From assembly GCF_020511115.1 (NCBI RefSeq), contig NZ_JAJAVH010000014.1, positions 1-64,000 of the forward strand: DNA of 64,000 nucleotides. Direction: 5' to 3'. The translations under genes and the position numbers were made by a program. This DNA comes from Luteimonas panaciterrae (lineage in GTDB: Bacteria > Pseudomonadota > Gammaproteobacteria > Xanthomonadales > Xanthomonadaceae). Positions 12,464 to 64,000 of the stretch are shown one piece after another (position 1 is the stretch's first letter; every line of letters begins with the position of its first letter). Under the pieces are notes generated by a model. The model saw only the letters and a program-made list of their open reading frames with translations, did not search any database and was not told the origin of the DNA.

Positions 12464-13108
12464 TCAGCGTGCTTTCCTCTTCGCTTCGGCGCCGCGCCAG
12501 GCCGCGATGGCGCATTCGGCTGCGCGCGCGACCGTGGCGGCGTCATCGCCCGGACGATACAGGCTGCTCCCCAATCCGAAACCGGCGACGCCGGCGTCGA
12601 GGAACGGCGTCAGGTTGTTGTCGTCGATGCCGCCAACGGCGAACACGAGCGTTTCGGCCGGCAACACCGCGCGCCATGCCGAAACGGTGCCCGCGCCAAG
12701 CTCGCGCGCGGGAAACAGCTTCAACGCGGCCGCGCCGGCCGAAAGCGCCGCGAACGCCTCGCTCATCGTGGCGACGCCCGGCATCACCTCGACACCTCGC
12801 TCGCGTGCCGCCCACACCACGTCACTGTCGAAATTCGGCGCCAGCAGCAAGCGGGCGCCCGCATCGACCGCCTGATCGGCCTCGGCGGCGGTCAGCACCG
12901 TTCCGGCACCGATCAGTGCGCGGTCGCCGAAGGCAGCCGCCAGCGCTTCGATACTTTCGAAAGGCGATGGCGAGTTCAACGGCACCTCGATGATCGTGAA
13001 GCCGCTGTCGATCAGCGTGGCGCCGATGTCGACCACTTCATCGGGATGCACGCCACGCAAGATGGCGATCAGCGGACACGAGCGCGCGGCGTCGGGCAGC
13101 GTCATCAT
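12464..13108 (-). CDS. dgoA: 2-dehydro-3-deoxy-6-phosphogalactonate aldolase DgoA
   Basis: A 214-residue class I aldolase of the KDPG/KDPGal family, splitting 2-keto-3-deoxy-6-phosphogalactonate to pyruvate and glyceraldehyde-3-phosphate. Visible are 'LIAILRG' (substrate-binding Arg), 'IIEVPLNSP' (catalytic Glu), 'LIGAGTVL', and 'AAALKLFPAREL' with the Schiff-base lysine. The 'EVPLNSP...ESI' segment and the C-terminal 'GLGSSLYRPG' resemble DgoA rather than Eda as I remember them. The start is one of two adjacent ATGs (13108 or 13105) after GGTGGAG; the frame further upstream overlaps the epimerase gene and has no ribosome site. It follows the epimerase-like gene by 31 bases. Confidence 0.88.
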   Translation of the reverse strand: MMTLPDAARSCPLIAILRGVHPDEVVDIGATLIDSGFTIIEVPLNSPSPFESIEALAAAFGDRALIGAGTVLTAAEADQAVDAGARLLLAPNFDSDVVWAARERGVEVMPGVATMSEAFAALSAGAAALKLFPARELGAGTVSAWRAVLPAETLVFAVGGIDDNNLTPFLDAGVAGFGLGSSLYRPGDDAATVARAAECAIAAWRGAEAKRKAR

Positions 13109-13139
13109 CGCCGTGGCTCCACCCCAATGATCGCTCTGA

Positions 13140-14165
13140 TCACGCCACGCCCTCCTCGAACCTGATTTCCTCGAACTCGATCGAGCCACCCCAATCCACG
13201 CCGCGAACGCGTCCGTTCGGCGCGAACAGTGTTGCCTCGACTCGCGTCGCGATCGTTTCATTCGGCGCGAGACCGATCGCCGTGCCACGCTGCGCCGCTT
13301 CCGCGAGCGAGGGCAGATCGCAGGCGGGTTCCAGCGCGATCATCCTGCGCGCGCCGTACCACGGGTAATCGCCTTCTCCACCCAGCATCCGCCACAGCCC
13401 CAGCACCGGGAAATGCTGCTCATTCCAGCGCAGCGCGACACCGGCGCCACGACGCGCATTCGACACGGCGAACCAGCCCTCGCTCACGCGATCGAAGCGC
13501 GTGAAGTCATGCAGCTTCGTCGCGTCGTCGGGCACGATCAAAAGATCGGCAGCGGCTTCGATGCTCACGGGAAGATCGATGCGCGTGCCCGCTTCGATGA
13601 GCGGCGCACCGAAGGTTGGATGATGTCCCCACAAAACCTCGATCCGATGCCCCGCCTCGTTGGTGATGCGCTCGTCCAGCCGCAGCGTTCCGCTGCCCTG
13701 CTCCAGCGACACGCGACGTTCGACCGCCAGCGGCGTGCGTCGCAACCGCGTGTGCAGCGTGATCGCGATCCGCTCCGGCCGATCCTCGTCGCACGTGACC
13801 TCCCAGGTGAGGAAGGTCGCTTCGCCATGCTGGCCATAGTCGGCGCCGCGATGCTGGCAAGGCATGGGACCGTTCGGCAGCATCAGATACCAGCCACCGG
13901 GGAACTGGTCGCGGAAGGCACCGACGGCCAGCGGCGACGAAGCGCCATCGAGCGCGTGCGGCAGTCCCGCCGGCGCCTGATGCAGCATTTCGGTGTCGGT
14001 CGGCTTGTGCAGCAATTCCAGGATGTCGCCGCCCTTGTCGGCGCACAGCACGACCCGCAGCGTCTCGTTTTCGAGCGACAGGCAGCGGCGGCCGCGCCAC
14101 ACGAAATCGCGCAGGCGGCAGCCCGTATTGCGGTGCTGGCCGAAGCGCGGACTGTCTTCTTTCAT
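13140..14165 (-). CDS. Aldose 1-epimerase-like / DUF4432-type galactose-mutarotase-fold protein
   Basis: A 341-residue protein of the galactose-mutarotase-like beta-sandwich fold. It has the N-terminal 'LSLENETLRVVLCADKGGDILEL' type strands of this superfamily, 'VLWGHHPTFGAP' in the place of the catalytic histidine region, and 'IALEPACDLPS' in the place of the family glutamate. It probably interconverts anomers of a sugar released in this pathway. The ATG at 14165 follows AAGGGG; the open frame continues to 14444 across the operator and is not used. It heads the leftward run epimerase-dgoA-esterase-iclR and is divergent from the GH105-like gene with an operator between. Confidence 0.75.
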   Translation of the reverse strand: MKEDSPRFGQHRNTGCRLRDFVWRGRRCLSLENETLRVVLCADKGGDILELLHKPTDTEMLHQAPAGLPHALDGASSPLAVGAFRDQFPGGWYLMLPNGPMPCQHRGADYGQHGEATFLTWEVTCDEDRPERIAITLHTRLRRTPLAVERRVSLEQGSGTLRLDERITNEAGHRIEVLWGHHPTFGAPLIEAGTRIDLPVSIEAAADLLIVPDDATKLHDFTRFDRVSEGWFAVSNARRGAGVALRWNEQHFPVLGLWRMLGGEGDYPWYGARRMIALEPACDLPSLAEAAQRGTAIGLAPNETIATRVEATLFAPNGRVRGVDWGGSIEFEEIRFEEGVA

Positions 14166-14242
14166 CGGCGACCCCTTGTGTGACTGTATAAGTAACATTA
14201 AATTGAAATAATGACAAAACTTGCCGCATACCGATTGATATG

Positions 14243-14257
14243 TTGCTAATTTAGTGA
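14243..14257. promoter_or_regulatory. Operator copy 3 between divergent epimerase and GH105 genes
   Basis: TTGCTA-ATT-TAGTGA, the same 6+3+6 palindrome, about 30 bases before the GH105-like start and 78 bases before the epimerase start. The stretch TGTTGCTAATTTAGT is identical to the reverse complement of copy 2. Confidence 0.65.
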
Positions 14258-14287
14258 TACTGTCCGCGCCCTCATGGAGTGGGGAGA

Positions 14288-15349
14288 GTGAAGGTGGCGT
14301 CAGCGACCGGATCTTGGCAGGCGGCCGGCTCACAGGCCGGCCCGCCCTTGCCCATCGCGCCCGAACGGCAGTTGCTCGTCCGCGTCGCCGCGACGACGGC
14401 CCGCTGGAATTTCCGGCTGTGGGGCTTCGGCGAGGCGATCGCATTGCGTGGCCTGATCACCGCTGGTGATGTGCTCGATGATCCCACCTACTACGGATAC
14501 GTGCTCGGCCTGATGCGCGGCTGGCTCGGACGCGGCGTCGCGCGCACCAACGAAGATCATGTCGCGCCCGGCCGCGAGTTGCTCGCGATCTGGGAGCGCG
14601 AACGCGATCCGGCGATGCTCGAAGCCGCGCGCGCACTGGCCGCGCTCAATGCCGGCTTCACGCCGGGTGCCGCCACCGGTGCGCGTTGTCATCGACCGGA
14701 TACGCCCGGCTGGCGTCACCAGATCTGGGTCGACTGCATGGATATCGATGGCCCGTTTCTCTCGCGACTGGCGATCGCGACCGGCGAGGACCATTACTTC
14801 GACCAGGCCGCCGACGAACTGCTCGGCTACGCACGCGCGCTGCAGGACGACTCCGGCGGCCTGTTTCGTCATGGCCACGAACATTACGCGGGACGCAACG
14901 GCGCCTATTGGGCGCGCGGCAACGGCTGGGCACTGATGGGCCTGATCGAAACGCTTGAAGTGTTGCCGCGAACGCATCCCGCGCATGACGAATTGCGCGA
15001 CCGTCTCGCCTCGCTGGTCGCGGAACTGACCGCGCGCCAGGATTCGACCGGACTGTTCCATACCATCCTCACCGATCAACGCAGTTATCTGGAAACCACG
15101 CTCGCCGCGATGATCGCGGCGACGCTGCCCGTCGCGATCGCATGCGGACTGATCGACCGCGCCTACGCCACCGTAGCTTCACGCGCGCGCGCAGCCGTCA
15201 TGCGTCATGTCGATGAAAGCGGCGCGCTCGGATTGGTGAGCGATGCGACGCCGGTCGGCGAACCCCATGTCTATGCGACCCGGCCCTTCGGCATTTTCCC
15301 CTGGGGCCAAGGGCCGCTCCTGCTCATGCTTGCGAGGAGCGCGAAGTGA
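14288..15349 (+). CDS. GH105/GH88-like unsaturated uronyl hydrolase
   Basis: About 353 residues forming an (alpha/alpha)6-barrel protein of the YteR group. The best marks are 'WGFGEAIALRGL', 'WVDCMDIDGPFLSRLA' (with the catalytic aspartate) and 'YWARGNGWALMGL'. These enzymes hydrate the 4,5-unsaturated uronic acid left at the non-reducing end by a polysaccharide lyase, releasing it as a keto acid. No export signal is seen, so it should act on imported oligosaccharides. The start is a choice: GTG 14288 has GGAG eight bases upstream; GTG 14279 and GTG 14294 are in frame. The stop overlaps the next start (GTGA). No lyase gene is in the window, which is odd for this family. Confidence 0.78.
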   Translation: MKVASATGSWQAAGSQAGPPLPIAPERQLLVRVAATTARWNFRLWGFGEAIALRGLITAGDVLDDPTYYGYVLGLMRGWLGRGVARTNEDHVAPGRELLAIWERERDPAMLEAARALAALNAGFTPGAATGARCHRPDTPGWRHQIWVDCMDIDGPFLSRLAIATGEDHYFDQAADELLGYARALQDDSGGLFRHGHEHYAGRNGAYWARGNGWALMGLIETLEVLPRTHPAHDELRDRLASLVAELTARQDSTGLFHTILTDQRSYLETTLAAMIAATLPVAIACGLIDRAYATVASRARAAVMRHVDESGALGLVSDATPVGEPHVYATRPFGIFPWGQGPLLLMLARSAK

Positions 15350-51019: not shown

Positions 51020-54000
51020 CTATTTTGTATGTGGAATACCTTGATCATATGGCGCCCATCTGACATTACTCTGAGCGCCAGGGCAATCTGCTGCGGCCGG
51101 ATCATCCAAAGGAAGCAACTCATATTCTGTCCCCCATTCATTGCTGTTCTTGGCACCATTTTCCTTTGCCCATCTCTCAAAAGCATCCGCCAAACTCTCC
51201 CCCTTCCCAACGCTTTTGGCAAAATTTATGCCTGCGTCATTACTAGGGAGATCTTCTGGCGAAAAACCACTGTGATAGTCATCAAGACCGACAGCCTGCC
51301 TAAATGTTTGCCACGATTCTGCGACATAACCCAGCGAGGTTGCGTACCATGAATAGAGATTATTATCAATAATCAGATGAGCAGCTTCTGCAAAGTGCCT
51401 GGAATCTACCCATCCGTATGTTGAAGTATAAAAATATCTCTTGTACCCCCGTGGCCCATAAAAATCGCTGATTTCGCTCAAACTCCTTAGTTTAAGCTGC
51501 TGATACATAGTAAACCATCCAGTTGCCCCTTTTTTATTAGGGGCTTGTCCTAGTGGGTCCACATGCATGTTTGGTGAATTTTCACCGTAAACGTAAGGAT
51601 TGATCCCTCCATCCAGCCCAATTGGATCAACTTGCAAGTACTTACCTGTGTTCGAATCATAGTACCGATTGATGTTGTACCAGAATCCGCTCTCCGCATC
51701 GTAGTACTGCCCTGGGAAGCCCACATTAAGGCCTCCGATGGCATCAGTCGGCACCGAACGGTTGAAAGCATAGTTGTTTGCCCGCCACCTCACCGCTTTT
51801 GCAGCATCGGTCGCAATCTCAGGCCGCCCCAGGTGGTCATTGTGGATGTAGTAAATTTGACCGTTCCGGACCAAGCCGACCAACTCACCGCCGAACCATA
51901 GGTAGCTCGTCCATACATCGCCGTTGTCCAAATGCTCGGCTAACAACTGATTCCCCGGCGCATAGGCGTACCGGGTCGTCAACCCTCCCGCGATCTTGGC
52001 CACCCGCTCGTTAAAGACATTGTAATTGTAGGCGCCGACCGTGACCCCATTCCTGCTCACCGACTGCAGACGGTTGAAGCCGTTGTAGGTCAAGACAAGT
52101 CCGTAGCCACTGGTCGTGTTGCCCACACCGTCGTATCCAAAGGCGGCGGTCTGTCCCCCACCGATGGTGTTCAGGCGGTTGCTGTCACCGGCCACCAGAT
52201 ATGTGTCGGTGCGGCTGGACGTCCCACTCAGTACGGCTTTGGTCCTGTTACCGGTGTTGTCATACGTGTAGGTCCAGATGTCATTGAAACCAGTGCTGAA
52301 CTTCTGCAGGCGCGAGATGCCGTCGTACTCAAAATCCAGCGTGGTGCCAGAATTGCCGGCATTGGTGACTTTGTCGATACGGTTGTTTTCATCAAAAGCG
52401 TAGGTCAGGCTTTGCAGCGGGCCGTTGTCGACGCTAATGGTCGCCACTTGGCCATCCTTGTTATAGCCGATCAGGCGCTTGAGGCCATTGCCATAGGTCC
52501 AGCTGCTGGCCGACCCGAAGGGCTCATAAGCAGCACCGGTGATGATGCTGCTCTTGGCCGTTCCCTGAGTCACCGTCATCGACGTCGGTTTGTCCAGGGT
52601 GTATCCGTACTCCACCAGAATTTCGTTCGGATAGCGCATCGCGACGAGGCGCCCGGCGGCGTCGTAACCATAGCCGGTGCGATAATTGGTGGTGACGCCC
52701 CCGACTGTGATGATTTCATTACGGCGCGCGATCTGGCCATCAGGCATATAGTCGAAATGTGTGTTGGCGTTTGTAGCTGTCGTGTCGCACAACCGGCCCT
52801 TTCCGTTCGTACAGGTATCGTAGGCGAAGGTTTGCACCACACCGCCCACCGTACTCTTCGTGACCCGGTTCAAAGCGTCGTATTCATACGTCACCATGAC
52901 GCTTGCCCCACGAGCGTCGGTGCGTGTCTTGAGGTTGCCGGCACTGTCGTAGGTATAGGTCGTGGTCTTACGATCCGGGCTGACCTCCTGCGTCACATCA
53001 CCAAAGGCGTTATAGACATACGATGTACTCAGCCCCCGTGGATCTGTGACCTTCTTGACGTTGTCGTACACGTCATACTCATAGGCCGTCTCGGCGTGTA
53101 TGCCGGCCTCATCCCCAATCGTACTGGCCAAACGATTGAGGGCGTCATAGCTCTGCCGGGTTCGATAGGTGAGCGGATCGGTGATGGTGTCCCGATTGCC
53201 GTTCGCGTCATACGTGAAGTTGGTGATGTTGGAGATTGCATCGCCGTCTTCCAGTGCGGTTTGTTGCCCTAACGTATTGAACTCACGCGCGAGCGTGCGC
53301 TTCACGGCTCCGGCCACATCTTTTGTGTCTTCCTGCCACCGGTTTCCTGCCTTATCCAAGGTGTAGACAATCTTGTTCTTCGCGCTGTCCTCGATACCGG
53401 TCAGTCGATGTGCCGTGTCATAAGTGAGCACGTGGTACGCACCATCCGGGGTTGTGATCTTGCTGACCTGCCCGGTGGTGGAGTACTCGATGCTCGTGAT
53501 CTGATCATCTGTCTCGACAGCATCGTTGGCGCCGCGAAGTTTACGGGTTGTCAGCCAACCACGCGGGGAATACCCGTAGTCGGTCACAACACCGTTGGCG
53601 TCTTTCGCGGAAAGCGGGCGACCCGCACTGTCGTACTTCAGGATTTCAATCACGTGCCCCGCAGCATTGACGACCTTCCAGAGGTCGCCCTTGCGATACG
53701 TACAGGTGGAGGGAGATGTACTGCAGTTAGGATCATCGCTGACCCGGTACTGGTAGTTCGTGACATCACTGACATCCGTGCGTGGACCGTCGACTGTTCT
53801 CAACAAGCCCACCATCGGACAGACAGTATCGACCGACTCACAATACCCATAAGTCGTGGTGCGAACCGCGTTGATGGCCGTGTCCTTGACGCTCATCGTG
53901 AGCGGCTGCAATCGGGCATTACGCGTGATCCGAACCTCCCGATTGCCGACCTTGGTCAGAATGACGCGGTTACTGGCGAGGTCGCGGCGCTCCTCGACAG

Positions 54001-55747
54001 TGCGACCTTCCGCCTTGCCATAGGCTTCTTCCACGGTATGGGTGCTGGCCGGCAGATTGGTGACGGGGTCCGTCATCTCACCATAAGAGTGCTGTGTTTC
54101 AATGTTCTTTCGGTCGATAACGACCTTCAAGCGGCGGCGAAAATCTCCCGATTCGTCGTAATAGGTTCGCTTGATCGTCCCCGCGCTATTTTGCGTATCG
54201 TCCACCTTGCGGGGCAGCCCTGTGGCGCTCGTCGCGGTCAGGCTGTAATCCGTCTGTAGCCCTAGGGCATCCGTGATCAGCGCGCCTCCTGCAGTGGTGT
54301 AGCTCAGCACCAGCTTGTCTACGTCACCAGCCAGCTTGCTGGTCGCGATCCTGCCCATGGTGTCGTACTCGAACCAAGCATAGCGCTGATTGTCTTCTGC
54401 GGTGATCCCCGTCAGGCTGAGGGGGAAGTTGGAATTCTCATAGTGATAAGCACGGAAACTACCTCCGGGATAGCTTGCGGTTTTCACCTGGCCTGTCGTG
54501 GTATAGCCATAGGTCACCAGGGTTGCGCCGCCCGATGCAATTGTTTGGATGACCGTGGTGTCAGGACTCGCCCCATAACCGATAACCAGCGCGCGCCCAG
54601 TTGAATGCGTGATGGTGACGAGACGGCTACGATTGTCATAGGCGTAGACAAGCGATGTTCCATCTTCGAAATCCTGCCGTTTCAACTGGCCATTCGGCGC
54701 GAAGGTCAATACCTTGTCGGAACGATAGAGCTTCCAGTCAGTACCGCTCGCTGCGATACGGTCCCCGCCCCCATCGAAGGCTTCATAGACGGTGCCGATC
54801 TTCTTGAAGGGGATTTGTGTCCCATCCACATCAATCAACCCGATTAACACCGTGGCATCCGATGAGCTTTTATCCGGCCCCATCGTCAATTGGATGTTGT
54901 GAGAATTCGTCCAGCCGGAGCCGAAGCCACCACGCGCCGTGGACGTCGACGAATGATAAGTACGGCTGAAGGTGATCCAACCCAGATCAACATCCGTCTC
55001 AGTCCCCGACTTATCGCCAGTAGCTGGATTGCAGCCGCCTGGAGAGTCGCAGTTGCTTACTAGCGGCTCGGACCAATAGAACAAATAGTTTGCGAATGCG
55101 GTCTCCGTGGCTTGTTGCATACCGCAGGCATTCAACTCCGGGCGCCATTCCATGATGGCGGTGTTGGGGCAATCGACGGACCGGGTCCGTTGTGCGTATG
55201 CACCACTGTTCACCAAAGGGCTGCACGACGAACCTGCAACGATATAACGGGTGATCGTGTACGTCCGGTCCTCGCCTTCGTTTTCACCGTTGGCTCCGGT
55301 GCCAGCTCCGCCTCCCGGGATACCAACCCATTGGCCATTCCCGACCACGGTCGTTGCAGAACACCCCGCACCCGGCGGATTGGCATTCTTCATCGCCTGG
55401 ATCATCGCGTCTTCGGATGCGTAATTCGTGCTGCCCCAAAGATAGGCCCAGGGCGTTCTGTTCACATCTACCGGTTTCAACCGGTAGTTGTAGAGAGTCT
55501 TGTTGGGAGTGGTGATCTGGTCTTTCACTTCAAACGTGAAAGCGCCATATTGCTGTTTGTCCTGAAACAGATTCTCAATGTCGATCTGTACGTCACGTTC
55601 TTTTAAGCGCTGAGTCGATGGCATGACCTTGCTCAACCATCCTTTTGTTACCTCCTGCGCGAGCGCGGATGGCGCTAATGACACAGCCATCAAGACGGCA
55701 AACAACAGCCCCCACCTCGGGTATGACTTCCGATGACTTCTACTCAT
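51020..55747 (-). CDS. Secreted Rhs-repeat polymorphic toxin
   Basis: About 1575 residues with an N-terminal signal peptide ('[17 protein letters not shown]'), a 240-residue cysteine-containing N-domain, a DUF6531-like segment ('[17 protein letters not shown]'), long arrays of RHS/YD repeats ('[11 protein letters not shown]', 'YDALNRL'), and the RHS core end ('[19 protein letters not shown]', '[20 protein letters not shown]', '[17 protein letters not shown]') near residue 1401. The last 174 residues form a variable toxin domain with the signature '[13 protein letters not shown]' and '[16 protein letters not shown]'. ATG 55747 follows AAGGGG. The composition is AT-richer than the flanking chromosome. 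Delivery through the outer membrane by itself is likely; no PAAR domain is seen. Confidence 0.88.
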
Positions 55748-56172
55748 TTCCAAACCCCTTATTGACCAGCGCCAAGATCGACACGATGCACCGAACCCAC
55801 CTTTCCTCTTCGAACGGTCTACCGCCACGCCACCAAATCTCGCCCCGACTTCGCCATCATCCTCTTATGACAACAAGCTATCTGACGATCTCAGCGCTCC
55901 TAAGAAACCGCATTACCGCCCCCATCTAAAGACGGCTGAGAGCGCCAGATTCCGTCATTGCTTAGAAGAAGGGCCCTCCTCTCGCATCGTTCAGATATCG
56001 CCAGATCCCGCTTTCGCCACTAGTTTTGAGGATGACGATACTAAGTACCTCTCGCACTCAGAATTTGGCATGTCATGCTGTAGGAGAAATCCGAACTGGC
56101 TGAATACGCGAGCGTCCCTCCTTGTCTCTTTTGACGCCTTAACCATTGGCAGCTGCCTGTTAGCCATCATGT
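55748..56172. other. Divergent intergenic region between Rhs and the XRE regulator
   Basis: About 425 bases of AT-richer sequence without a convincing gene. A 71-codon frame at 55991-56206 on the minus strand has no recognisable family or ribosome site. The promoter of the Rhs gene should be at the left end. Confidence 0.4.
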
Positions 56173-59137: not shown

Positions 59138-60445
59138 ATGAACGGCGAAACCCGGTTGGCCAAATTTGCGGATGCCCTTACGAAGAAGGGAGCGAAGCCG
59201 TCCAGTGGACAGGATGTAAAGAGTACGACCGATCATGCCCTGATAAACGGCCATGCAAATGACATGGTCTATAAGCTGCTGCCACGCAAAGATAGGCGTG
59301 TGCATGGTGTGTTTTTCTCGGGTTCAACGTGGGCACGAGCCCTCGTGGAACAGTTGAACATTGAACAATGGTCACGATTCCTGGACCCAAGTGCAGGCAC
59401 GGGCGATCTCCTTCTGGAAATCTGTAAGGGCTTGCCGCTAGAAGAGACCTCAACTCTCACAATCAAAGCTTGGGAGAAACGTCTCGGTGCGATTGATCTC
59501 CGGGAATCCTTCCTAAGGATTGCGTGGGCACGAATCCAAGCTTTGGCGATGACTCGTCATAGAGAAACGATAGACACATCACATTTCAGGCCACTCCCGC
59601 GAAGTTTTCGCGCTGGGAACTTATTCACAACGCCTTTGACGTTGCATTCCGGCGATTGCTTGGTCATGAACCCGCCGTATCAGCGCATGTTAGCGGGCCG
59701 TGATAGCTACGTCGGCGCGGGGAAGCGATCTGCGGCCGCTCTCCACGTCGAATACGTATTGCGTTCAGCACCAGAAAATGTCGGCCTGATCGCCCTCGTT
59801 CCTGATGTTCTCCGTAGCGGAAGCTCGTATAAGGGCTTTCGCGAAGCACTCAGAAATCGCATGGAAATTACGAGCTTCAACGGACACGGAAGTTTTGGCG
59901 GAGATGCCGATATTGATGTGGCGATCCTTCGCGCGGTAACGAAGAGCCTTGCAGTGAAAGTCTCTGCAGTGGAGCTTCTTACGCCCAGCCAAAAATCTAC
60001 TGGAACCCTGGAGAAGGTGGCGGATCTTTGCAGTGTTGGCGTCGGACCGGTGGTCCCACACCGGACCGAAGAAACAGGAAGGCCACACGGATATCTGACT
60101 GCGAGAAATTCGCCGATCTGGGGGGCAGTCGAGACGCCTACAGAGAAAGCACGGTTTGAAGCACGCCTGCAAAATGGTCCATTTGTGGTTGTGCGTCGAA
60201 CATCCAGCCCAAAAGACAAGCAGCGCGCACGCGCGACACTCGTCCGCGGCAAGGGACCATGGCTGGTCGAAAATCACCTGCTGGTGATTAGTCCTCGGAG
60301 CGGAACGATCAAGGACTGCCAGAAGATCATTAAGAATTTCAAGGATTTCCGCACAGATGAATGGCTAAACCATCACATCCGTTGTCGCCATCTCACAGTT
60401 GAAGCGATTGCGTCCGTGCCAATCTGGGATGGCGAGCAGGCTTAG
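59138..60445 (+). CDS. N6-adenine DNA methyltransferase
   Basis: A 435-residue gamma-type adenine methyltransferase. Motif I is 'FLDPSAGTGDLLLE' (D83-P-S-A-G-T-G89, SAM binding), motif IV is N-P-P-Y (178-181), the catalytic motif of N6-adenine enzymes. 'RRVHGVFFSGSTWARALVE' is the usual motif X-like lead. The C-terminal part ('GPFVVVRRTSSPKD', 'IRCRHLTVEAIASVPI') looks like a built-in target-recognition region, so it should methylate without a separate subunit. No restriction nuclease is visible in the window. It starts a four-gene unit with the GHKL kinase, receiver and metallo-beta-lactamase genes; the next start lies 13 bases after its stop. The ribosome site is weak. Confidence 0.88.
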   Translation: MNGETRLAKFADALTKKGAKPSSGQDVKSTTDHALINGHANDMVYKLLPRKDRRVHGVFFSGSTWARALVEQLNIEQWSRFLDPSAGTGDLLLEICKGLPLEETSTLTIKAWEKRLGAIDLRESFLRIAWARIQALAMTRHRETIDTSHFRPLPRSFRAGNLFTTPLTLHSGDCLVMNPPYQRMLAGRDSYVGAGKRSAAALHVEYVLRSAPENVGLIALVPDVLRSGSSYKGFREALRNRMEITSFNGHGSFGGDADIDVAILRAVTKSLAVKVSAVELLTPSQKSTGTLEKVADLCSVGVGPVVPHRTEETGRPHGYLTARNSPIWGAVETPTEKARFEARLQNGPFVVVRRTSSPKDKQRARATLVRGKGPWLVENHLLVISPRSGTIKDCQKIIKNFKDFRTDEWLNHHIRCRHLTVEAIASVPIWDGEQA

Positions 60446-60458
60446 GGGCAGCATAATC

Positions 60459-62534
60459 ATGATTCCAGCATCAAGCAGCTTTCGTTTCGCTCCCTCTATC
60501 CTGACACGGCTGGGCGAAGAACTGGTTCCCAATCTTGACCAAGCGATTATCGAGCTTATTCGAAACGCCTACGATGCTGACGCCTCACTCTGCACGATCG
60601 AGCTTAAGGATGTAAAGCAGCCTGGGGGGACAATTGTGCTCTCAGACGACGGCATCGGAATGCGGGTAGACGACATTAGGAATGGCTGGCTGATACTTGG
60701 TGGATCATCCAAGGAAAGCAGCAAGCTCACGCCCATCCGCGGTCGACGCACTGTTGGAGACAAGGGATTAGGCCGTCTCGCTGCGCTGCGCGCAGGCGCT
60801 AAAGCGCTGATGATCACTCGGCACATGGATGAAAACGAGGCTTATGCTGTAGAGGTCGATTGGAAGAATTTTGAATCCGTTCGTGTTGTCGAAGATGTTG
60901 TCCTGCCCATCACGCTTGCTGAGCGGGATAGCCCAGGCACGACCATCACGTTGACAGGAATAAGACGTGCACTTAACCGTGCGGAGGTCGATCGACTTGG
61001 ACGCAGCATTGTGCTTCTCACAAGTCCTTTCGACGGAGGAAGCGACTTTCGCGTGAATTTGACAGCCCCTGAGTATCCGGAGCTCGAAGCACGTGTCAGG
61101 AATGCATATCTGGAGGACGCTGAGTTCATCCTGCGCGCCGAGATACGCGATGACGGTACGGCGTTCGCAGAGGTACGTGATTGGAAGAATATACTTCTTT
61201 ACAGTGCGGAAGCCCCCGATTGGCTTCCCCGACAGCCCGCCAGCGAAGCTAAGTACAACGCTCCGAGAACGATCTTTGAACTCTACAATTTCGTTTTCAA
61301 TAAGAATGCATTTGCTGGCAGATCGTCGACGATTGGCGAGGTCAGGCAATGGCTGAAACTCGTGGGCGGTGTTCATTTCTATCATCGCCATTTTCGAGTT
61401 CCTCCATACGGTGATCCTGGTCACGACTGGCTTGACATGAACCTGGCTCGTGCTCGAAGCCCAGAGGAACGGCCATCGACCAACAACAGCGTTGGGCGCG
61501 TTGTTGTTGACGATCCTGACGGCATTCTGCGCCAGAAGACAGATCGTTTCGGATTTATCGAAAGCGAAGAATTTTTAGAAATTAGGCGCTTCGCCAAGAA
61601 CGCTCTTGAATGGTTCGCCAGACGCCGCCTGCGCGATGCTGAGGCGCGTCGGGACCTCGAGAAAGAAGAGATGCGCCGGGGACCTACCGAGGCTAGAGCG
61701 GATCTGGAAAGATCGATCACCAGGGCTATGCCGGCGCAAGAACAGGAACGCGCGATCAGGGCGCTTGATCGCATGCAGCAGACCTTTGAGAAGGCTCTAA
61801 AATCTACTCGCGACGATCTCGTTCTTTATCGTTCCCTGGCTACTGCAGGCACAACTGCCGCTGTATTTGCCCATGAAGTTGGGAAACCAATTCGTACTAT
61901 TGCCGGCTCCCAGAAGAGTATTCGACACCGCGTAAAATCTCTTAAGCCAGCAAGGACCGTCGAGAGGCTAATCCCGGCTCTGGATCGAATCGTGAGTGCA
62001 TCTAACCGTCTAACGCGCTTCGCAGGAATGCAGATCGATTTTCTTAAGCGCGAGAAGCGCCGACACGGCGCTGTGGATGTTAACAAGGTTATCCACCAAC
62101 TTCATGATCTCTGGCAACCAGTACTGCGCGACGCCAAGATCGTTTTGCACTTCGAGCCGCACGATGTAGAGAGTGCCGTAATGTTTGGCGCTGAAGCACT
62201 GGTGGAAACAATCATCACCAATTGCTTAACAAACGCTGTAAGTGCGTTTGAGCAACCGGGTGCCCGTACTAAGGACCGTCAGGTGCATCTACGGGCTATT
62301 GCCGAAGGCAACACTGTTGCCATAGAGATTGAAGATAACGGTCCGGGCATATCGATGGATATTGCTGATATCTGGCTTCCCGGAAAGACCACTCGTCCGG
62401 AAGGAACAGGGTTCGGCTTGACAATCGCTAAGGACTCGGCACTCGACCTCAGCGGGACCTATGCCGCATCCAACACGCCTGACGGAGGAGCCAAGTTTCG
62501 CTTTGTTTTTCCTCTCATGTCCAACTACAGCTAA
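60459..62534 (+). CDS. Double-GHKL protein: MORC/Hsp90-like ATPase fused to a histidine-kinase module
   Basis: About 691 residues with two ATPase modules. N-terminal GHKL: 'LDQAIIELIRNAYDADA' (E32, N36), 'DDGIGM' (63-68), 'VGDKGLGRLAAL' (99-110), then an S5-like transducer with 'FRVPPYGDPGHDWL' and 'DRFGFIESEEFLEI'. A coiled coil (about 385-450) leads to H472 in 'FAHEVGKPIRTI', the N box N588/N592, 'EDNGPGI' (625-631) and 'GTGFGLTIAKD'. The first module would sense and clamp like Hsp90, MORC or MutL; the second would phosphorylate H472. No transmembrane segment. ATG 60459 follows AGGGG; earlier in-frame ATGs overlap the methyltransferase. Its partner is the receiver protein, 14 bases on. Confidence 0.85.
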   Translation: MIPASSSFRFAPSILTRLGEELVPNLDQAIIELIRNAYDADASLCTIELKDVKQPGGTIVLSDDGIGMRVDDIRNGWLILGGSSKESSKLTPIRGRRTVGDKGLGRLAALRAGAKALMITRHMDENEAYAVEVDWKNFESVRVVEDVVLPITLAERDSPGTTITLTGIRRALNRAEVDRLGRSIVLLTSPFDGGSDFRVNLTAPEYPELEARVRNAYLEDAEFILRAEIRDDGTAFAEVRDWKNILLYSAEAPDWLPRQPASEAKYNAPRTIFELYNFVFNKNAFAGRSSTIGEVRQWLKLVGGVHFYHRHFRVPPYGDPGHDWLDMNLARARSPEERPSTNNSVGRVVVDDPDGILRQKTDRFGFIESEEFLEIRRFAKNALEWFARRRLRDAEARRDLEKEEMRRGPTEARADLERSITRAMPAQEQERAIRALDRMQQTFEKALKSTRDDLVLYRSLATAGTTAAVFAHEVGKPIRTIAGSQKSIRHRVKSLKPARTVERLIPALDRIVSASNRLTRFAGMQIDFLKREKRRHGAVDVNKVIHQLHDLWQPVLRDAKIVLHFEPHDVESAVMFGAEALVETIITNCLTNAVSAFEQPGARTKDRQVHLRAIAEGNTVAIEIEDNGPGISMDIADIWLPGKTTRPEGTGFGLTIAKDSALDLSGTYAASNTPDGGAKFRFVFPLMSNYS

Positions 62535-62548
62535 TTGGAACTGCCATC

Positions 62549-63232
62549 ATGCGCGCGATAAAAACGGTCGCAGTCATAGACGACGACGACGATGCAGCGG
62601 AGACAATTATTGGGGCTCTTGAAGACGGAGATTTCACAGCATTCCGCCAAGAAGCGCACGAGTCCATCGAGGAACTCGTGAACGCCATAGTCACAAGTTC
62701 CGATGCTGCAGTTTGTGATCATCGGCTTCGGTATGGCGGTTTCGCCGATATCTCAGGAGCCGATCTGGCGTCCAGACTAGTACTTAGGGAGCACCCGACG
62801 ATCCTGGTAACCCAGTACCTTGATCAGGATGCCGATATCGCAATCCGCAGCTATAGACCGAATCTTCCTGTCGTCCTAAGGCGCGAAGACGCCGATGAGC
62901 CGGACGAGCTACGCGATGCCTTTGCCCGTTGTGTTGTGGAGATTACACGTGGCCGAAAAGATGACCGGATCCCACAGTTAACGCTGCTGGAAGTTCTTTC
63001 CATCGAAAAAGTGAACGGCGCTAAGGTGATAGATGCGGTTGTTCACGGCTGGCACTCCTCGAACGCAGTCCGGTTTCCGATGTCGCTAGTAAAAGAAGCT
63101 GACAGAGACGGCATCAAGCCTGGTGATACGCTGAGTGCAATGACGAACCTGCGGACAGAAAAGCAGATCGATTTGTATTTTGAGGATGTGAAGCTTGCCC
63201 CAGCGCCGGATCCGAACGATGGCCTCGAGTGA
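62549..63232 (+). CDS. Receiver-domain protein with unassigned C-terminal domain
   Basis: A 227-residue protein. The N-terminal receiver has the acidic cluster D11-D15, phospho-acceptor D57 in 'AAVCDHRLRY' and T88 in 'ILVTQY', but the conserved lysine is replaced by arginine (R111/R112 in 'VVLRRED'). After residue 140 comes a 75-residue domain with beta-strand character ('VIDAVVHGWHSSNAVRFPMS', 'GDTLSAMTNLRTEKQIDLYF') and no DNA-binding motif, so it is not a standard transcription factor. It follows the kinase by 14 bases and overlaps the next gene by 14, so stoichiometric coupling is likely. It would relay the kinase signal to the metallo-beta-lactamase protein; this is inference. Confidence 0.82.
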   Translation: MRAIKTVAVIDDDDDAAETIIGALEDGDFTAFRQEAHESIEELVNAIVTSSDAAVCDHRLRYGGFADISGADLASRLVLREHPTILVTQYLDQDADIAIRSYRPNLPVVLRREDADEPDELRDAFARCVVEITRGRKDDRIPQLTLLEVLSIEKVNGAKVIDAVVHGWHSSNAVRFPMSLVKEADRDGIKPGDTLSAMTNLRTEKQIDLYFEDVKLAPAPDPNDGLE

Positions 63233-64000
63233 GCTAATTGTTGTAGACGTTGGGCATGGCAATTGCGCCATTATTCAACATGGCACTGAGGCCATCGTCA
63301 TTGATGCCCCAGCGAAGCCCATCGTCGCGCGAATTCTGGATGAGCTCGGCATTCAATCGATAAATTATTTAGTCCTATCGCACGCAGATGCAGATCATCT
63401 ATCCGGCGCGGTCCCTCTGATTCTCAATCGGGAACGCCCCGTTGCCCATGTGTATGTCAATCCGGACAGACGGACTTCGCAGGCGTGGTTGCGATTTCGC
63501 CAAGCTGTAGCTACTGCACACAAAGAATTTCAGACCGCCACGACGGTCCATCCTTCGGTAAGCACTGCCGATTCTGGCACTATCACTATGGCTGGAACCA
63601 CCTTGCACATCGTGCATCCACAACCTGAAATGTGCTTGACCGGCACGGGCGGAATCGATATCGATGGACAGAAGGTCACGGCAAATAACATGTCTGCCGT
63701 AGTTTTGGTCGAGCACAATGGGAACAGGATTTGTTTGCTAGCTGGTGACGCAGACCGACGCAGCCTCGATCGCATGGTTGACAACAAAGCTAACCTGCAT
63801 GCTCAGATACTGATCTTTCCACACCACGGCGGACGCGCCGCCGTCAGCGACAACCGGAGTTTCGCCCGCGACCTTGTCGCATCTGTCGAACCTTCAGTTG
63901 TACTGTTCTCGCTCGGCCGCGGTTCTCACGGCACCCCTCGCCCTGAAATTGTTGCCGGCGTCAGAGAAGCAATGACCGAACAGCCGTCTCCCTACATCGC
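63219..64000 (+). CDS. ComEC-like metallo-beta-lactamase-fold protein (3' end outside window)
   Basis: About 260 residues are visible before the window edge. The start ATG lies 14 bases before the receiver stop. Metal-binding motifs of the ComEC/Rec2 nuclease branch are present: 'DVGHGNC' at the N-terminus, H-x-D-x-D-H in 'LSHADADHLSG', an aspartate in 'ICLLAGDAD' and histidines in 'LIFPHHGGR', followed by 'LFSLGRGSHGTPRPEI'. No membrane segment is visible, so it resembles the free MBL domain of ComEC rather than a DNA-uptake channel. A hydrolase acting on nucleic acids or nucleotides is probable. It is the best candidate for the effector of the four-gene system. Length and any further domains are unknown. 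Confidence 0.85.
   Translation, partial: MASSELIVVDVGHGNCAIIQHGTEAIVIDAPAKPIVARILDELGIQSINYLVLSHADADHLSGAVPLILNRERPVAHVYVNPDRRTSQAWLRFRQAVATAHKEFQTATTVHPSVSTADSGTITMAGTTLHIVHPQPEMCLTGTGGIDIDGQKVTANNMSAVVLVEHNGNRICLLAGDADRRSLDRMVDNKANLHAQILIFPHHGGRAAVSDNRSFARDLVASVEPSVVLFSLGRGSHGTPRPEIVAGVREAMTEQPSPYI

Follow-up and report, generated by a model that had tools for sequence, protein, structure and literature searches.

Closest described systems

Proteins that combine HATPase_c_3, HEF_HK and HATPase_c domains, with Response_reg_2 partners and near restriction-modification (R-M) genes, were described by Bellieny-Rabelo et al. 2021 (PMC8011034); both ATPases were present in 174 of 222 of these proteins, and the N-terminal GHKL domain was suggested to be a sensor. 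Here we analyze a protein with two GHKL ATPases, the dual-GHKL protein, encoded in a 64,000-nucleotide stretch of the Luteimonas panaciterrae contig NZ_JAJAVH010000014.1 (the window). Since its architecture and the sensor idea both appear in that paper, neither is new. The gene is the second of four, and this set, with an N6-adenine methylase and a ComEC-like enzyme, differs from the published HEF_HK kind. The reading we prefer, to which we give an even chance, is that the dual-GHKL protein is the control protein of a mobile defense operon resembling an R-M system, in which the cutting arm is a His-Asp relay that drives a DNase. The four genes, in window coordinates, with protein lengths in amino acids (aa), are as follows:

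59138 to 60445, + strand: N6-adenine DNA methyltransferase, 435 aa, with an NPPY motif and profile matches to BseCI and EcoKI HsdM
60459 to 62534, + strand: dual-GHKL protein, 691 aa, supported by two Pfam GHKL matches, a family profile, an AlphaFold2 model and invariant residues
62549 to 63232, + strand: receiver (response-regulator-like) protein, 227 aa; AlphaFold2 pLDDT 89.8, CheY-like with Z ~13
63219 to 64000, continuing beyond the window to contig position 64235, + strand: ComEC-like metallo-beta-lactamase-fold protein, 338 aa; Lactamase_B, with a ComEC profile match

With the HEF_HK/Response_reg_2 elements (PMC8011034), the locus shares a soluble protein that holds HATPase_c_3, DHp and HATPase_c together, an adjacent receiver-like protein and an R-M neighborhood. 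The partners differ, being an N6-adenine methylase and a ComEC-like enzyme in the window but a C5 methylase, Vsr or HNH in the published elements, and the word "lactamase" is absent from the main text of that paper. Membership of this group by Pfam was ruled out, as neither domain was matched. HEF_HK (PF19191) gave no match in the dual-GHKL protein at E ≤10, in a search whose HMMER filters drop most weak matches, and a PF19191 search of the same genome returned one weak place elsewhere and none above the cut-off. Response_reg_2 (PF19192) had no match in the window receiver, which has the REC fold and matched only PF00072, weakly.

Other described systems share single parts of the locus. The paraMORC/MORC ATPases of R-M systems (Iyer et al. 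2008, PMC2292703) have the N-terminal GHKL domain, the S5-type transducer and the R-M context, but here a histidine kinase, in place of a nuclease or helicase, forms the output; the main text of that paper does not use the terms receiver, two-component or metallo. Metallo-beta-lactamase (MBL) nucleases of the ComEC-like kind have been reported as gated antiviral DNases (PMC12799240). The Trypsin-MBL nuclease pairs (HamM and others) from the same paper use such a nuclease as a regulated antiviral effector, as we predict for this locus; their partner is a protease, whereas here it is a receiver, for which the proposed switch is phosphorylation. Detocs (DtcA/DtcB/DtcC; PMC11728103) also has a histidine kinase and a response regulator in a defense operon, but the present locus has a dual-GHKL kinase, a methylase partner and no visible separate phosphate-buffer protein (DtcB in Detocs). 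CapK/CapS and VapKSC (PMC13373217) are likewise systems in which a GHKL kinase controls immune outputs, and CapK is activated by single-stranded DNA in an immune circuit; in contrast to the kinase proposed here, CapK phosphorylates a serine in a STAS protein, with neither a His-Asp relay nor a MORC-type module. A DefensePredictor figure legend (PMC13092281) contains one predicted system with HATPase and REC domains, which may or may not be related to the present locus. Among the papers listed by open-licence PMC searches for this operon or its parts, we recognized, from titles and abstract openings, no description of the four-gene set.

Two GHKL ATPases in one soluble protein

The dual-GHKL protein divides into four segments, all on the + strand:

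60471 to 61622: MutL/MORC-type ATPase module with transducer, residues ~5-388, with E32, N36, DxGxG at 63-67, GxKGLG at 100-105 and the transducer lysine K360; HATPase_c_3 and MutL/MORC3 structural matches
61623 to 61823: helical linker, residues 389-455, from the transducer to the DHp helix
61824 to 62069: DHp hairpin, residues 456-537, with H472 within an FAHE motif
62070 to 62522: histidine-kinase CA (ATP-binding) domain, residues 538-688, with N588, N592, D626 and GxGxG at 649-653; HATPase_c and ZraS/HK853 matches

An initial annotation, made from the sequence, had proposed two different GHKL ATPases in this one polypeptide. Two separate significant Pfam matches agree with this, to HATPase_c_3 at residues 26-145 (E 4.5e-22; 79 bits, cut-off 25) and to HATPase_c at residues 579-686 (E 1.2e-22; 80.8 bits, cut-off 26.4), and an AlphaFold2 model of the monomer (mean pLDDT 76.4, pTM 0.66) contains two Bergerat folds. 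The first ATPase had been called Hsp90/MORC-like with a transducer of its own, and residues 5-388 of the model indeed resemble the N-terminal ATPase and transducer of MutL (7p8v; Z 19.5 over 295 residues at 4.3 Å) and MORC3 (5ix2; Z 19.1). The N-terminal part of a 13-sequence dual-GHKL family profile also matches MORC2, MORC3 and MutL, and both the GHKL ATP motifs and the S5-type transducer of a MORC/paraMORC module are present. The annotated histidine-kinase core with H472 and no membrane sensor was recovered as well: residues 461-688 of the model match the ZraS and HK853 kinase cores (Z ~20), and the family profile matches ZraS over residues 440-683 and FixL-type chimeras over residues 433-683. 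The H box, N, G1 and G2 motifs, the DHp/CA fold and an adjacent REC domain with its Asp are all there. Hydropathy over 19 residues peaks at 1.29, so the protein has no membrane-like stretch.

All 32 operon-bearing sequences, including that of the window, are identical at 19 ATP-site and phosphosite residues. These are E32, N36, D63, G65, G67, G100, K102, G103, G105 and K360 in the N-terminal module and H472, E473, N588, N592, D626, G630, G649, G651 and G653 in the kinase. Two exceptions lie outside this count: G628, a twentieth site excluded from it, is replaced by Ala in L025, and the gene of L019, which belongs to an operon but is cut by the contig start and is not among the 32, has Arg in place of K360. 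A chance or spurious open reading frame (ORF) was ruled out by the two strong independent domain matches and the 32 intact operon-bearing sequences. The structure prediction that the annotation had suggested as a check was run for both modules in the monomer, and neither appeared degenerate in sequence or fold; degeneration of one GHKL module was thus ruled out at the level of invariant residues and structural matches. As judged from sequence and model, the dual-GHKL protein is two complete GHKL ATPases in one soluble chain.

The annotation had also interpreted the first ATPase as a sensor that gates the second, and this is partly supported. The MORC/MutL-like module occupies the sensor position, N-terminal to the soluble kinase core, and we propose that it may sense, bind DNA and gate phosphorylation. 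Two near-continuous helices in the model (370-423 and 426-494) join the transducer to the H472 helix and form a plausible gating path, in a model that is of the monomer only and has pLDDT <50 at residues 471-476, around H472.

The gene set and its rewired clade

The four-gene setting, with methylase, receiver and ComEC-like enzyme, had been missed in the initial annotation, and in its light the protein is more likely to control a restriction-like system than to be a sensor kinase that works alone. Related loci were sought with peptide patterns from both halves of the dual-GHKL protein, so the search favors close relatives. We compared 39 loci in a first set and 8 in a second, with L064 and L065 common to both; L072, L073 and L076, apparently the same contigs as L012, L017 and L020, were left uncounted. 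A strong family-profile score defined a subfamily of 39 loci (33 from the first set and 6 new in the second), L032, a near-copy of L031, being counted among them. Receiver and metallo-enzyme both lie beside the dual-GHKL gene in 34 of these 39 loci (30/33 and 4/6), and the five misses are L020, where the contig ends, and L064, L065, L085 and L086, which form one clade. The loci come from seven phyla, and the named organisms include Pseudomonas, Burkholderia, Myxococcaceae, Amycolatopsis, Streptomyces, Frankiaceae, Chloroflexota, Armatimonadetes, Pseudanabaena and Hymenobacter. A strong methylase match was found near 27 of the 33 first-set subfamily loci and a weak one in L064 and L065; the methylase gene may stand upstream, divergent or last. 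Taking longest-ORF starts, 15 of 16 loci have kinase and receiver genes separated by -4 to 80 bases; the exception is L012 (-175), where the start codon is uncertain. The receiver gene overlaps that of the enzyme in 15 of the 16, and L024 has a 27-base gap instead. Distances between loci, taken for each of the four proteins, are correlated (Mantel r 0.88-0.96, a level reached by 0 of 2000 permutations; 29 loci), which we count in favor of the relay-driven reading. In L025, a Pseudanabaena plasmid copy, the metallo-enzyme gene is split by an IS982 element (12818-14771).

The methylase gene ends 13 bases before the dual-GHKL gene in the window, and its NPP stands at 178-180 in 29 of 29 sequences. 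The receiver is modeled as a REC domain (residues 1-134) with D12 and the likely phospho-acceptor D57, followed by a beta-rich C-terminal region (143-216); D12 and D57 are kept in 32/32 sequences, and position 88 is T or S in all 32. The metallo-enzyme gene overlaps the receiver gene by 14 bases in the window. Its family profile matches the ComEC/Rec2 nuclease domain at E 1.7e-20, HxDxDH is present in 31 of the 31 sequences covering that part, and D177, H202, H203 and four Cys are found in 32/32. The protein thus has the HxDxDH motif, the Asp/His metal ligands and the nuclease-domain similarity of ComEC-type MBL nucleases, and by analogy with these it may cleave DNA. The four invariant Cys (262, 269, 294 and 331) lie in the C-terminal part of the enzyme (63219-64000 in the window; 13219-14235 in L022) and are possibly a second metal site.

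The commonest role of receivers is the control of transcription. The locus could on that account be a regulatory two-component system, in which the receiver regulates genes or the methylase and the operon tunes expression or DNA methylation rather than bearing a defense effector. We regard this as unlikely: the C-terminal part of the receiver is beta-rich in the model and has no obvious helical DNA-binding domain (the region was not searched alone), the overlap of receiver and metallo-enzyme genes recurs in nearly every locus measured, and the enzyme is kept throughout most of the subfamily. In its favor, the published relatives have been discussed as possible R-M controllers (PMC8011034).

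Compared with a type II R-M system, the operon has the DNA methylase, but no endonuclease domain, and hence no cognate site-specific endonuclease, was found in its proteins by Pfam, PADLOC or NCBIfam; the ComEC-like enzyme sits where the R-M endonuclease would be. The seven window ORFs scanned with Pfam likewise contained neither a helicase nor an endonuclease domain. BbrUII and REase_II matches span only the GHKL part of the dual-GHKL protein. The former, to BbrUII/HgiDII-type restriction enzymes, covers residues 14-184 (NCBIfam E 2.1e-20) and is far below the model's cut-off; the latter, to the same two PADLOC REase_II models in 13 of 13 dual-GHKL sequences, covers the N-terminal part in the window protein. 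The four proteins gave only partial matches in PADLOC 2023, where the metallo-enzyme was entered as cut at the window end: to REase_II, MTase_II, mad2 and the MBL proteins of DRT, Lamassu, PDC-M48B and AVAST, with the methylase matching mad2 and MTase_II weakly. None of these matches was to a Detocs model, in a release whose coverage of Detocs was not checked.

The four subfamily loci of one clade carry a different arrangement, in which the dual-GHKL gene lies with a BsuBI/PstI-type R-M pair (L064 2994-8621, L065 3128-8453, L085 3078-8352 and L086 3225-8873). The endonuclease was identified by Pfam in L064 (E 1.6e-61) and L065 (E 8.4e-63) and by similarity in L085 (E 1e-187) and, more weakly, L086 (E 1e-11), and only in this clade does the dual-GHKL gene have an endonuclease partner. 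The L064 methylase is of the Eco57I/N6_Mtase type, with profile homology to the operon methylase at 98.7% probability. No match to the receiver or the metallo-enzyme was found in the 9.4-15 kb fetched for these four loci. In a 42-row tree built from only the N-terminal module (L019, L020 and L032 dropped as cut, split and near-copy), they group as a single clade (100/99) that lies within the operon clade. Its sister is L087 (99/91), followed by L057 (100/98), and both of these carry the whole operon. The simplest reading is that the clade lost the receiver and the metallo-enzyme. A search for further members on plasmids, with the L064 protein as query, found none (3 records, none covered to 80%).

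The kinase half of these rewired proteins has changed. The His-bearing DHp stretch is 42-46 residues long in 4/4 proteins without a receiver and 76-78 in 20/20 aligned proteins with one. H472 is lost in two of the four, so that a strict rule by which the His is lost whenever the receiver is lost was rejected as only half true, while the hairpin is truncated in all four. Within the clade, the N-terminal modules are 87-93% identical, the DHp segments 36-60% and the CA domains 55-76%. The ratio of DHp to N-module identity is 0.40-0.67 in the 6 rewired pairs versus 0.75-1.13 in 32 receiver-bearing pairs with N-module identity >0.6. The ratio of nonsynonymous to synonymous substitution rates (dN/dS) is 0.04-0.06 for the rewired N-module (4 of the 6 within-clade pairs run), and the receiver-bearing pairs in this comparison were saturated at synonymous sites. 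A hairpin that is full length with a receiver and truncated and diverging without one links the kinase to the receiver. As far as these sequences from one event go, we read the hairpin as being kept for the receiver and the MORC-like half as having a function that persists after an endonuclease has taken over.

The same clade bears on a further alternative, that the main work is done by the MORC-like module, as a DNA clamp or remodeler that directly helps restriction, with the histidine kinase as a secondary brake or timer. The near-constancy of that half beside an endonuclease, with the kinase half diverging, fits this view, as do the below-cut-off BbrUII/HgiDII-type match and VcSduA, a GHKL-nuclease defense protein of a kind earlier called paraMORC3 (PMC12137116). 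In proteins that have the receiver and enzyme as partners, however, conservation of DHp and CA is close to that of the N-terminal module (DHp/N 0.97-1.13 and CA/N 0.89-1.08 in the 9 receiver-bearing pairs with N-module identity ≥0.85), and we think this alternative improbable, on a par with the regulatory one.

The remaining 6 first-set loci (L027-L030, L055 and L075) are distant dual-GHKL relatives without receiver or enzyme profile matches. In L075 (6321-10367), the dual-GHKL gene is followed, with no receiver between, by a large ORF with a helicase-like motif, which we take to resemble a DISARM-type helicase. Downstream of the distant genes in L027 (10113-11414), L028 (10131-11447) and L030 (10406-11089) are ORFs that look receiver-like by eye (acidic pocket, Asp) and match no Pfam family. 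L055 (5103-9659) has in a row an ORF that is C5-methylase-like by eye, the distant dual-GHKL gene and a 362-aa receiver; this neighborhood is of the published kind (PMC8011034), yet Pfam finds no HEF_HK there.

A mobile operon and its proposed mechanism

The window operon has a GC content of 53.8% (59138-64000) versus 64.6% over 1-50000, and AlpA and DUF6387 genes adjoin it. The AT-richer stretch that holds it ends at a tyrosine integrase next to tRNA-Pro; with 15-base seeds, no attachment-site repeat of the tRNA-Pro region was found in the window, which leaves the left boundary of the island without a fixed position. Close to this stretch lies a gene for a 1602-aa RHS-repeat protein (51020-55828, - strand). 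In L031 (809-8916), as in its near-copy L032, the full four-gene operon is on a phage contig, adjoining portal and terminase genes. Within ~10 kb of the dual-GHKL copy are ApeA and AbiV in L013, DUF4297/HerA annotated as anti-phage in L024, patatin and ThiF-type genes in L026, a NACHT protein in L025 and a ResIII helicase in L011. Matches were found in at least 2 of 61 genomes of relatives, at least 2 of 398 of the phylum (one of the distant L055 type), at least 3 of 321 of the class (L055 among them), at least 11 of 295 in the G456 genus (two in the rewired clade), at least 2 of 374 in the G456 class and at least 5 of 301 in the G457 phylum (among them one split copy and one distant one). These counts include the center genome, and all are lower bounds because few first-look candidates were scored per genome. 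Taken together, these sequence data indicate that the operon is patchy and mobile, and the mobile or defense-type settings count in favor of the reading set out next.

On our preferred reading of a relay-driven defense operon, the methylase would mark self DNA, and the MutL/MORC-type ATPase dimer, on meeting unmarked or foreign DNA or a phage-made DNA state, would close in its ATP cycle. Closure would be passed through the helical linker to the DHp bundle, where the second ATPase would phosphorylate H472, and the phosphate would move from H472 to D57 of the receiver. The phosphorylated receiver, via its C-terminal region, would then turn on the ComEC-like metal-dependent enzyme, which would cut DNA. 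Support exists for both catalytic modules being intact, for a receiver with its Asp, for the linkage of kinase and receiver and for the ComEC-like partner enzyme; we infer the input signal, the phosphotransfer, the activation of the nuclease and the role in phage defense.

Several points weigh against this reading. DNA or its methylation state as the signal, phosphotransfer, contact between receiver and enzyme, DNA cutting and phage defense are all drawn from analogy. The receiver scores 15.5 bits against PF00072 (E 0.019), for which the REC cut-off is 30.2, and its beta-5 Lys position (112) is Lys in 14, Arg in 14 and another residue in 4 of the 32 sequences. Four loci that have a receiver lack a nearby methylase (L018, L025, L063 and L019, the last at a contig start). 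All loci were retrieved through similarity to the dual-GHKL protein, and common ancestry inflates the Mantel correlations. In 6 of 9 Pfam-scanned loci (L008, L009, L017, L021, L053 and L054), no flanking defense gene was recognized, in a scan of the 9 that covered 20 ORFs in all and not every ORF. The rewired clade is a single evolutionary event in which two of four members kept the His; its CA/N identity ratios (0.61-0.86) overlap those of receiver-bearing pairs (0.79-1.08), and its CA domain is still somewhat constrained (dN/dS 0.16-0.27 in three unsaturated pairs).

ATPases of the MutL/MORC type generally act as clamps. This, and the usual methylase partner and MutL/MORC-like transducer, which point to DNA, make it very unlikely that the first ATPase measures nucleotide level in the cell rather than responding to DNA, with a relay reporting energy or nucleoside triphosphate depletion, although such a role has been put forward in print for relatives (PMC8011034).

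More tentatively, and with somewhat less confidence than in the relay-driven defense operon itself, we suggest that a His-Asp phosphorelay may here have taken the place of the endonuclease of an R-M system, with a MORC-type ATPase reading the methylation or foreign state of DNA and signaling, by way of the kinase in its own chain and the receiver, to a ComEC-type DNase. Its output would be modular, as one Streptomycetaceae lineage would have dropped the relay and regained a BsuBI/PstI-type endonuclease. Restriction and two-component signaling are usually treated as separate worlds. If it is true that a relay gates a DNase beside a self-marking methylase, restriction would become amplifiable, reversible and subject to a kinase checkpoint. 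In the rewired Streptomycetaceae clade there is a natural experiment on the contribution of each ATPase, one that bears on what prokaryotic MORC-like ATPases sense.

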